A DNA stretch of 64,000 bases, taken from contig NZ_CP041387.1 in assembly GCF_007005445.1 (NCBI RefSeq), forward strand, positions 3,001,001 to 3,065,000, read 5' to 3'. Shown here piece by piece: positions 7,104 through 52,829 of the stretch. Numbering within the stretch: the first letter of the stretch is position 1; each line of letters opens with the position of its first letter. Made by a program: the position numbers and the translations under genes. Under the pieces are notes generated by a model that worked only from the letters and a program-made list of their open reading frames with translations, ran no database searches and had not been told where the DNA came from. Source of the DNA: Rhodopseudomonas palustris. Lineage in GTDB: Bacteria > Pseudomonadota > Alphaproteobacteria > Rhizobiales > Xanthobacteraceae.

Positions 7104-8816
<1,713 letters not shown>

Positions 8817-47449: not shown

Positions 47450-51331
<3,882 letters not shown>

Positions 51332-51401
51332 CAGCGGGGCGGCCTTCTTGCAGGCGTGATCGCCTGCGCAAGCCGCCGTCACCGCATCAGCCGCCTCCGC
51401 C

Positions 51402-51524
51402 GTCGTCCCCCGCGCAGGCGGGGGACCCAGTATGGCAGAGAGCGCGTAGTGAGCCTCGAGCGATGCAGCGGGCGCTCTGGGATACTGGGTCGCCCGGCTC
51501 GTTGTATGGCCCGGGCGATGACGG
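51402..51524. repeat. Dispersed palindromic repeat, family F
   Basis: About 120 bp: CGTCGTCCCCCGCGCAGGCG and GGGGGACCCAGTAT on the left; ATACTGGGTCGCC, CCCGGGCGATGACGG on the right. It follows metH by 70 bp and may end its transcript. Only this copy is seen in the window. Confidence 0.75.
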
Positions 51525-52060
51525 TGGAAAGTCGGGCGAGCGCGTGCGTGATCGCGAGGCTTGTCGCGAGCTTCGGCTCGAACTGCGTTGTTCCGATTCA
51601 GCCTGTCAAACAGCCACGGCGTCGCGATCTCGCGGCTCGAACGAGCCCGAGCTATGCGCCCGTCGTCATCACGACGAGGGGCGGGGGCGCGCCGCGCGGC
51701 GCAAAGTTGGTGGTTGGTCGCGATGGCTTGCGAACCATCGCGCGACGCCGTCACGGCGCGCCCACCAGCGGCGATCTTTTGGCGTCGGGACCGTTCTTCC
51801 GGGCGCGGGGAGCACGGGGATTTCTCCCGCCTCGTTCCGTCCCGTCCAGCCTCGCGATGGGCAGCCGCTCATAGTAGCGGCGGACGGCGACCTTCTGCCT
51901 CCCGGACGATCGGCTTGCGAGGCCGCTCGCGCAGGACGCCGCGTCAGGCTCGGCGCCGCTGCACCATGCAGCTTCGCCAAACCCTCACCGGCCGGTCTCC
52001 CGGCCGACGATCTGTCCCGCTTCCAAGCGCCCTTGAGAAGCGCCCCTCACGGACAGGACG
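51525..52060 (-). ncRNA. Candidate structured RNA downstream of a strong promoter (no recognisable gene)
   Basis: About 540 bp on the minus strand, from a predicted start near 52060. No family-recognisable protein is encoded; the only fair open frame (51669-51980, TTG start) is low-complexity and Arg/Pro-rich. Many perfect stems occur on this strand: GGCCGG-GAGA-CCGGCC, GCTGCA-TGG-TGCAGC, GCGATGG-8-CCATCGC, GTCGT-GATG-ACGAC, GGCTCG-TT-CGAGCC and GAGC-CGAA-GCTC. GC alone makes some hairpins likely. From memory, the block AGCCTGTCAAACAGCC with its surroundings recurs in intergenic DNA of Bradyrhizobium-type genomes; I could not check this. The 3' end is undefined. Confidence 0.4.
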
Positions 52061-52064
52061 ACAC

Positions 52065-52097
52065 GGACTATAGTCCTTGTAGGAATATTGTCAATAT
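52065..52097 (-). promoter_or_regulatory. Strong sigma-70-type promoter overlapped by two palindromes
   Basis: On the minus strand: -35 TTGACA (52094-52089), 16-bp spacer, -10 TATAGT (52072-52067). The -35 lies within the perfect inverted repeat ATATTGACAATAT (52085-52097) and the -10 within the 12-bp palindrome GGACTATAGTCC (52065-52076). These AT-rich 33 bp stand out in the GC-rich surroundings. Such placement is typical of repressor operators, though no regulator is suggested by the context. Confidence 0.65.
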
Positions 52098-52196: not shown

Positions 52197-52829
52197 CTAT
52201 GCCGGCGTCGGCGGGATCAGCGGCTGTACGATCTCGCGAAACGCCGGCAGGGCTTCGCAGCGCGCCGCATGGGCCGCGAGCGCGGGATGGCGCGCGGCAT
52301 CGAACAGATGCGGATGCGCCTCGCCGGTGAAGCGCAGCACGCAGGCGACCGCGATATCGGCGTGGCCGATGGTGTCGCCGAACCAGAACGGCGTCGCGAT
52401 CGCGGCGCGTTGCGCCTCCAGCACGTCGAGCACACTGCCGATCTGCGCCTCGCAGCGCGCGACCCAGACGTCGGATTGCTGCTGGCGCAGCACCCGCTCG
52501 TAGACCAGGCTGACCGCCTTGTCGCCAAGCCCGGTCGCCAGCGCGCAGACTTTCAGCACCTGCCGCCGCGCCGATCCGCTCTCCGCGATCATGGCCATGG
52601 CAGGCCCGACCAGTTCGTCGAGATAATCCAGGATCGCGGTGCTCTCGATCAGCGCCTCGCCATCGTCCAGCACCAGCGTCGGCACCCGGCGCAGCGGATT
52701 GTATGGCGCAATCTTGTCGGCATCGCCGAAGGTCGACCACGGCCGGTGCTCGAACGGCAACTCATACAGCCGCAGCGCGAGCGCGACGCGGCGCACGAAG
52801 GGGGAGTCGTATTGGCCGATCAGGATCAT
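52197..52829 (-). CDS. Glutathione S-transferase family protein
   Basis: A roughly 210-residue GST. The thioredoxin-like N-terminal domain reads MILIGQYDSPFVRRVALALRLY with the active-site Ser/Tyr region, then RRVPTLVLDDGEALIESTAIL, the cis-Pro and Glu-Ser that hold glutathione. The C-terminal helical domain has FWFGDTIGHADIAVACVLRF. Substrate unknown. Two starts are possible, ATG 52829 or GTG 52838. It is isolated, between the candidate RNA promoter and the DUF2442 gene. Confidence 0.9.
   Translation of the reverse strand: MILIGQYDSPFVRRVALALRLYELPFEHRPWSTFGDADKIAPYNPLRRVPTLVLDDGEALIESTAILDYLDELVGPAMAMIAESGSARRQVLKVCALATGLGDKAVSLVYERVLRQQQSDVWVARCEAQIGSVLDVLEAQRAAIATPFWFGDTIGHADIAVACVLRFTGEAHPHLFDAARHPALAAHAARCEALPAFREIVQPLIPPTPA

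Follow-up and report, generated by a model that had tools for sequence, protein, structure and literature searches.

The window, the 64,000-nucleotide stretch of the Rhodopseudomonas palustris genome analyzed here, contains an 865-bp gap without a recognizable gene, flanked by metH (ending at 51331) and a GST gene (ending at 52197), in agreement with an earlier, sequence-only reading of this DNA that had found no recognizable protein between them. That reading had also placed the best sigma-70 promoter of the window in the gap, and a scan of the whole window gave the same result: the minus-strand site at 52094-52067, TTGACA-16-TATAGT, matches the consensus at 11 of 12 positions, as opposed to 9 of 12 at each of the four other sigma-70-like sites. 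Both promoter boxes had been said to lie within perfect palindromes, which holds for the -10 box (GGACTATAGTCC) but not for the -35 box, where the palindrome is interrupted (ATATTG A CAATAT). The tight repression proposed on this basis is unsupported, because the -10 palindrome is present in only 8 of the 54 aligned copies described below, and the -35 palindrome is made of flanking sequence that is not conserved. Between metH and the putative RNA gene lies a REP-like palindromic repeat (51400-51520), which has many short matches in the same genome.

Copies of the unit and their common ends

A blastn search with the region returned at least nine matches in the genome of the window, with full or partial copies at no fewer than about eight places. 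Across 61 genomes, blastn detected the unit in at least 14 of the 16 Rhodopseudomonas genomes, as well as in one genome of another genus (G020), with short matches in at least four others; because this search scored the best 10 candidates per genome, the copy numbers it gives are minima. With R1, a covariance model built on the 3′ domain, there were 7 matches in the genome of the window and 128 in the genus as a whole, distributed over 14 of the 16 genomes with 4 to 19 matches each, and none in G009 and G014 (4.1 Mb, same genus), which were likewise without a match in the 61-genome search. In genome contigs, a 19-base pattern occurred in 52 stretches, 48 of them in Rhodopseudomonas, and the other four (from Nocardiopsis, Nitratireductor, Rhodobacter, and Rhizobiales AFS010580) gave no profile match at E ≤ 1. 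The same was true of L191, one of three stretches from a viral scan. The predicted viral contigs L192 (IMGVR_UViG_642555153_000003) and L193 carry a copy or its 5′ part, possibly as host flank included in a prophage prediction. A plasmid or phage origin was rejected, the window copy having no blastn match among 72,556 plasmid and 50,697 phage records.

In the 58 full-length copies, collected from 14 genomes (G020 and 13 members of the genus), conservation sets in with the -35 hexamer, upstream of which the sequence differs from locus to locus, and stops near GTGGCTGTTTGACA. In an alignment of 54 of them (A1, from which L067, L075, L076, and L089 were omitted; alignments A2 and A3 comprise 37 and 35 of the 54 copies, respectively), the -35 box is exactly TTGACA in 48 copies, and a -10 pattern was found in 50, as TATAGT in 34 and TATAAT in 13, with a spacer of 16 in 49 of the 50 copies that have a recognized -10 box. 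Given this conserved start and the retention of both boxes and their spacing, the promoter belongs to the unit. No terminator-like site was found at the window copy, and the 3′ end is therefore merely the point at which conservation stops. The parts of the window copy are listed in Table 1. Stretches limited to the promoter plus a portion of the 5′ hairpin were recurrent among the matches listed (for instance, G008:C50:26150-26206 and G015:C22:77891-77964).

Table 1. Predicted parts of the promoter-plus-RNA unit in the window
Feature	Positions	Strand	Basis
Conserved unit, promoter and structured RNA gene	51604..52094	-	Profile match and common ends, 58 full-length copies
-35 box TTGACA, where conservation of the unit begins	52089..52094	-	48 of 54 aligned copies
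-10 box TATAGT	52067..52072	-	Pattern found in 50 of 54 copies
Predicted transcript, ~457 nt	51604..52060	-	Start inferred ~7 nt past the -10 box; end is the end of conservation
5′ hairpin P1, conserved GAGGGGCGCTTC, two stacked stems	52012..52056	-	Helices 1 and 2; two double-changed pairs
Accessory hairpin (CCGG...CCGG)	51991..52004	-	Helix 3
Accessory hairpin, inner stem 51958-51972	51949..51980	-	Helices 4 and 5; six double-changed pairs
Core hairpin Pa, loop type CTCGCAA	51910..51926	-	Helix 6; covarying pairs in tree-based and family-wide tests
Core hairpin Pc, loop type ACTA(C/T)GA	51864..51881	-	Helix 7; covarying pairs in tree-based and family-wide tests
Core hairpin Pd (GCC...GGC)	51849..51862	-	Helix 8; covarying pair 103-115, family-wide core
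Conserved stretch CGGAAGAACGGTCCCGA...AAAAGATCGCCG, 3-bp closing stem	51769..51801	-	Helix 10; pairs invariant
3′ domain, long stem GGTGGGCGCGCC/GGCGCGCCCCC and inner hairpins	51683..51766	-	Helices 11-13
Hairpin CCCTCG...CGACGG	51659..51681	-	Helix 15
Terminal hairpin CTCGGGCTC...GAGCCGCGAG	51629..51651	-	Helix 16
3′ end motif GTGGCTGTTTGACA, conserved	51604..51617	-	Common ends of full-length copies

Secondary structure and strand

The predicted RNA of the window copy folds to -257.7 kcal/mol (z = -3.9), and none of 100 shuffled sequences was as stable, consistent with the initial description of the region as stem-rich. The accompanying count of at least six perfect hairpins was not reproduced with arms of 8 or more, for which an inverted-repeat scan yielded two pairs only, one of them the promoter palindrome; shorter arms alone could satisfy it. 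Double compensatory changes occur at 24 of the 92 pairs in the RNAalifold consensus. Long-range pairs that RNAalifold proposed, linking the core to the 3′ end, were excluded from the named 85-pair structure, because these pairs show almost no variation and would form at the expense of the local terminal hairpin. In the 85-pair structure, 97.7% of the pair cells are kept, 26 of the 85 pairs are changed on both sides, and 277 cells are double-changed, compared with a mean of 83.8 in shuffles that do not preserve relatedness (the structure itself being derived from the same sequences) and with 12-42 when the partners are slid. Under a tree-preserving null of our own making, in which substitutions are replayed on the tree, E fell below 0.05 for 4 of 121,278 column pairs, three of which are helix pairs. 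In the family-wide core, for which 93 of 99 sequences from many genera were used (91 distinct), the same threshold was passed by 4 of 7,021 pairs, each of them a helix pair, located in three different hairpins, against a background in which 4.9% of 3,141 variable column pairs are equally complementary. Compensatory changes between copies, the kind of evidence to which the sequence-only reading had pointed, are thus present. Conserved secondary structure extends over hundreds of nucleotides, with the 5′ hairpin by itself remaining below significance (0 of 2,016 pairs in the family-wide alignment, the automatic version of which is poor in this part). Within the 3′ domain, helix 13 covaries, and helices 11 and 12 are nearly invariant in the genus, so that the long stem is neutral evidence for pairing, as is the closing stem of CGGAAGAACGGTCCCGA...AAAAGATCGCCG, whose pairs are invariant. 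Overall, the alignments show a predicted fold with a 5′ hairpin domain, a central core of short hairpins, and a 3′ long-stem domain.

With the long-range pairs included, the paired positions contain 421 G-U and 29 A-C cells. This is the asymmetry expected of RNA, in which G-U is tolerated and A-C is not, and the promoter strand is therefore the RNA strand. Some features of the copies, namely their intergenic location and the REP-type palindromes that adjoin several of them, would suit a DNA-level repeat, that is, a palindrome cluster of the REP or BIME type with any RNA being incidental. However, a DNA function does not explain the G-U excess, and the consensus promoter within the unit and the asymmetrical architecture also argue against such a repeat, which we consider very improbable.

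A protein-coding gene was ruled out, since any one frame stays open in at most 7 of the 58 full-length copies, and the lack of a conserved frame also speaks against a decayed protein gene. The window copy is located 3′ of GST and is co-oriented with it, as might be expected of a 3′ UTR element or cis-acting leader belonging to a neighboring gene, but metH, which lies downstream, is convergent, and across the 54 copies the neighbors, defined by a longest-frame rule rather than by annotation, are oriented ++ in 18, -+ in 13, +- in 13, and -- in 8 (two copies without assignment), a distribution that is not significantly biased (p = 0.17 and 0.27). This disfavors a cis-regulatory leader, which was rejected for want of a consistent co-oriented downstream gene, and we give next to no credence to either a cis-acting element or a decayed gene. 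The copies and their common ends, together with the pairing data, show a discrete, multicopy promoter-plus-RNA unit with a predicted fold, strand, and lack of coding capacity, and the unit in the window is, with high probability, a member of a family of structured RNA genes that are ~460 nt long and dispersed in the genome. The original proposal of a promoter-driven, multicopy structured RNA is supported by the further copies in the same genome and its relatives, by the compensatory changes, by the absence of a conserved coding frame, and by the inclusion of the promoter in the unit.

Distribution and turnover of the copies

Among 149 sampled genomes of the taxonomic family of the host, R1 matched at least 38, representing at least 18 of 47 genera. 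Four further genomes of the family that R1 had missed (G027, G071, G097, and G168) proved, by accident, to contain profile matches, and the spread is therefore wider than R1 shows. In 25 distant loci that were fetched, the parts follow the same order where complete; a motif similar to the 3′ end GTGGCTGTTTGACA is present in 12 of them, and the accessory hairpins (51991..52004 and 51949..51980 in the window) are absent from the profile matches of most. Two genomes from two other families of the order had 2 and 3 R1 matches, respectively, and at these loci the 5′ hairpin, core, and 3′ domain are again in the same order, the middle being diverged in G219. Sequence resembling the 5′ hairpin was recognized by eye in the distant genera as well as in these two genomes from other families. 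A class-wide sample scan with strict filters matched the genome of the window alone, of 289. By eye, the distant members L220, L225, L229, L302, L305, and L308 have another leader at the place of the promoter, of the TTATCCCCG...TTA type.

A 17-base search pattern, which we take to derive from Bradyrhizobium repeats, occurred in 5 of the 149 family genomes, with 22 occurrences in one; four of the matched genomes are members of genus g49, presumably Bradyrhizobium. Of ten Bradyrhizobium-like loci, which include two pairs identical over the compared stretch, all have a terminal CTCGGG...GCCGCGAG hairpin and nine (all except L294) have a 5′ GAGGGGCG-like motif. At the genome scale, R1 had no match in the Bradyrhizobium-like genomes among the matches listed; on the fetched loci its scores were weak (E of 0.002-0.08), with L292 and L296 matching better outside the element. 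Because the stems and promoters are unlike the Rhodopseudomonas form and the R1 scores are weak, this branch is connected to the family through short shared motifs and the arrangement of the parts. In L292, L297, L298, and L301, a different leader, TTTACCGAAATTCGG, was seen by eye at the place of the promoter. The multicopy blocks that the sequence-only reading had placed at several intergenic sites of Bradyrhizobium-type genomes are thus found both in Rhodopseudomonas, with its 128 R1 matches, and in the Bradyrhizobium-like genus. Collectively, the matches show a predicted RNA family that is spread within one bacterial order.

At the site downstream of metH, compared in 16 genomes, the unit is present in 4, and neither the unit nor a stub was found in ten. 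In the remaining two, G003 (L194) and G006 (L195), there is only a promoter stub, TTGACAATATTCCTA plus a few bases, which looks like the outcome of a deletion in each of these genomes. At a second locus, the arrangement is REP-element-REP in G010 and G015, as well as in G004, and a single REP at the joint in G000; G003 has no element there but different upstream sequence. Most simply, the empty site in G000 would have arisen by recombination between the REPs, loss being the simpler reading. Copies may thus be lost by deletion, in one case through recombination between flanking palindromic repeats. Since REP recombination or deletion explains these cases, presence and absence in close relatives alone is no proof of transposition.

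The closest relative of a copy resides in the same genome for 29 of the 54 copies, is the orthologue, defined by a shared upstream flank, for 4, and lies elsewhere for 21; restricted to the 32 copies with an orthologue among those compared, the numbers are 14 in the same genome, 4 orthologues, and 14 at another locus elsewhere. A PHI-type test rejected the absence of recombination (0 of 200 permutations). Copies in the same genome have mean identities of 0.79-0.93. Orthologues from near species, with flanks 88-94% identical, are 0.88-0.97 alike, above most of the mean paralogue values, and those from more distant species are 0.75-0.83 alike, at or near the paralogue level. These comparisons show exchange or turnover of sequence between what appear to be recombining copies, and make a partial case for their homogenization.

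As the ends are set here, the unit does not have the terminal inverted repeats and target-site duplication of a transposon or MITE: taken as inverted repeats, the ends match at a mean of 5.8 of 20 bases, approximately the chance level, and an abutting direct repeat of at least 3 bases was found in none of the 44 copies (of 54) with a TTTGANA end, with 0.5 expected. A target-site duplication derived from TTGACA at both ends was also rejected, because the hexamer varies at the 3′ end (GACA, GATA, GAAA) and is mostly constant at the 5′ end, and the abutting repeat was not found. A ~40-nt palindromic insert with a ACAAGTTTACGCAGTYTGCG core is present inside several RNA copies at varying positions, for example, at 1313-1332 of L060 (3847112-3847131 of the genome of the window). 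The core was detected in 27 of the 149 family genomes and, in 17 of 30 fetched loci, lies in the RNA or within 150 nt of it; several of the other ACAAGTTTACGCAGTYTGCG loci split the tips of REP-type hairpins, as if palindromes were targeted.

The unit could nonetheless be a selfish, nonautonomous mobile element whose own spread requires the structured RNA. Its movement would have to be that of DNA, since every copy brings along the promoter, a part not included in the transcript. Its multicopy and patchy occurrence in every orientation, its presence and absence between close relatives, the many 5′ fragments, and the 91-93% similarity of copies with different flanks (the latter two among the matches listed) are what mobility would produce. 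However, the unit encodes no protein, lacks the abutting repeats (0 of 44) and inverted-repeat ends (5.8 of 20), and is without a match in plasmid or phage records for the window copy; the absences that could be resolved, that is, the stubs in G003 and G006 and the single REP versus REP-element-REP, resemble losses; and full-length copies with intact promoter and pairing are common, with some loci common to several species. We regard a selfish element as the principal alternative, possible but somewhat doubtful.

Known RNA families and the possible role of the RNA

A search of the whole window against Rfam 15 (4,227 models) at the gathering score returned nothing at the RNA unit and one match far away, to RF02514 (5′ ureB sRNA; 8376-8663, plus strand, 106.6 bits), which may reflect merely the conserved ureB coding sequence. 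At E ≤ 5, the region had three subthreshold matches, two outside the unit and one on the opposite strand. Among 12 distant loci searched at E ≤ 0.1, L220 has a cobalamin riboswitch ~100 nt past the element and L225 has three subthreshold matches to miRNA models; 7 Bradyrhizobium-like loci searched at E ≤ 0.5 yielded only tRNAs outside the element and subthreshold matches. Identity with a known RNA family was rejected, as neither the element nor any of the scanned relatives corresponds to an Rfam 15 family. A description of the ~460-nt RNA was not found among the results listed by searches of the openly accessible literature, and we make no claim that it is unpublished.

As described in the accessible text of PMC12286853, OLE, GOLLD, and ROOL are large, ornate structured bacterial noncoding RNAs. 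The ~460-nt RNA is, as predicted from its sequence, likewise large, structured, bacterial, and noncoding but differs in its 4-19 dispersed copies per Rhodopseudomonas genome, and none of the Rfam 15 families matches it. The mobile or repeat candidates of the GC-IGR pipeline are presented, in the available portion of PMC11109978, as structured, covarying, and oriented independently of their neighbors, with several copies per genome, and the ~460-nt RNA shares these traits. One of them, MRSC-65-2, is described there as a single long stem, often in dozens of copies, whereas the ~460-nt RNA has many hairpins and a built-in promoter; Rhodopseudomonas, Bradyrhizobium, Nitrobacter, and Afipia go unmentioned in the available main text of that paper. 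Br-REP1 and Br-REP2, as characterized in the accessible part of PMC5082802, are palindromes of 20-40 bp at ~200 and at least 50 sites, respectively, in USDA 110, and, similar to the RNA unit, recur between genes in Bradyrhizobium and Rhodopseudomonas and could form hairpins. Neither consensus had a match in the window with up to 3 mismatches, and identity with these repeats was rejected. According to the same text, Br-REP2 belongs to a bigger repetitive element that its authors left undescribed (data not shown) and that is probably not the ~460-nt RNA, because the Br-REP2 consensus has no match in the window. For B. japonicum, the accessible part of Cuklina 2016 reports mapped transcription starts.

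With its own sigma-70 promoter, each copy would form an independent transcription unit, read from the minus strand in the window. The folded RNA would act in trans, most likely as a scaffold for a ribonucleoprotein or for an RNA oligomer. A trans-acting RNA fits best, because the unit is stand-alone and heavily folded, with conserved loops and many similar copies, and a host-serving RNA of this kind has, in our estimate, an even chance of being correct. rRNA-like multigene families consist of dispersed copies of structured-RNA genes that exchange sequence. The RNA unit resembles them in being dispersed and in the exchange between its copies, and, as with rRNA, a large number of copies that recombination keeps alike could supply the required RNA dosage; unlike rRNA genes, the copies are far from identical (mean identity of 0.79-0.93) and are missing in two genomes of the genus. 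We tentatively suggest, at somewhat less than even confidence, a new class of large, trans-acting Hyphomicrobiales RNA with up to ~20 promoter-driven, recombining copies that serves as a scaffold for RNP or RNA assembly. If so, its gene number and copy exchange would be nearer to those of rRNA than to those of any regulatory RNA. A large, conserved, multicopy RNA without an Rfam 15 match would also mean that a substantial part of the makeup of these cells may have been overlooked. The patchy occurrence, with no match in G009 and G014 and at least 38 of the 149 family genomes matched, and the frequency of 5′ fragments would suit a dispensable or selfish element just as well as a host-serving RNA. 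The two genomes without a match of the RNA, G009 and G014, would be useful for a screen for protein partners lost together with it.
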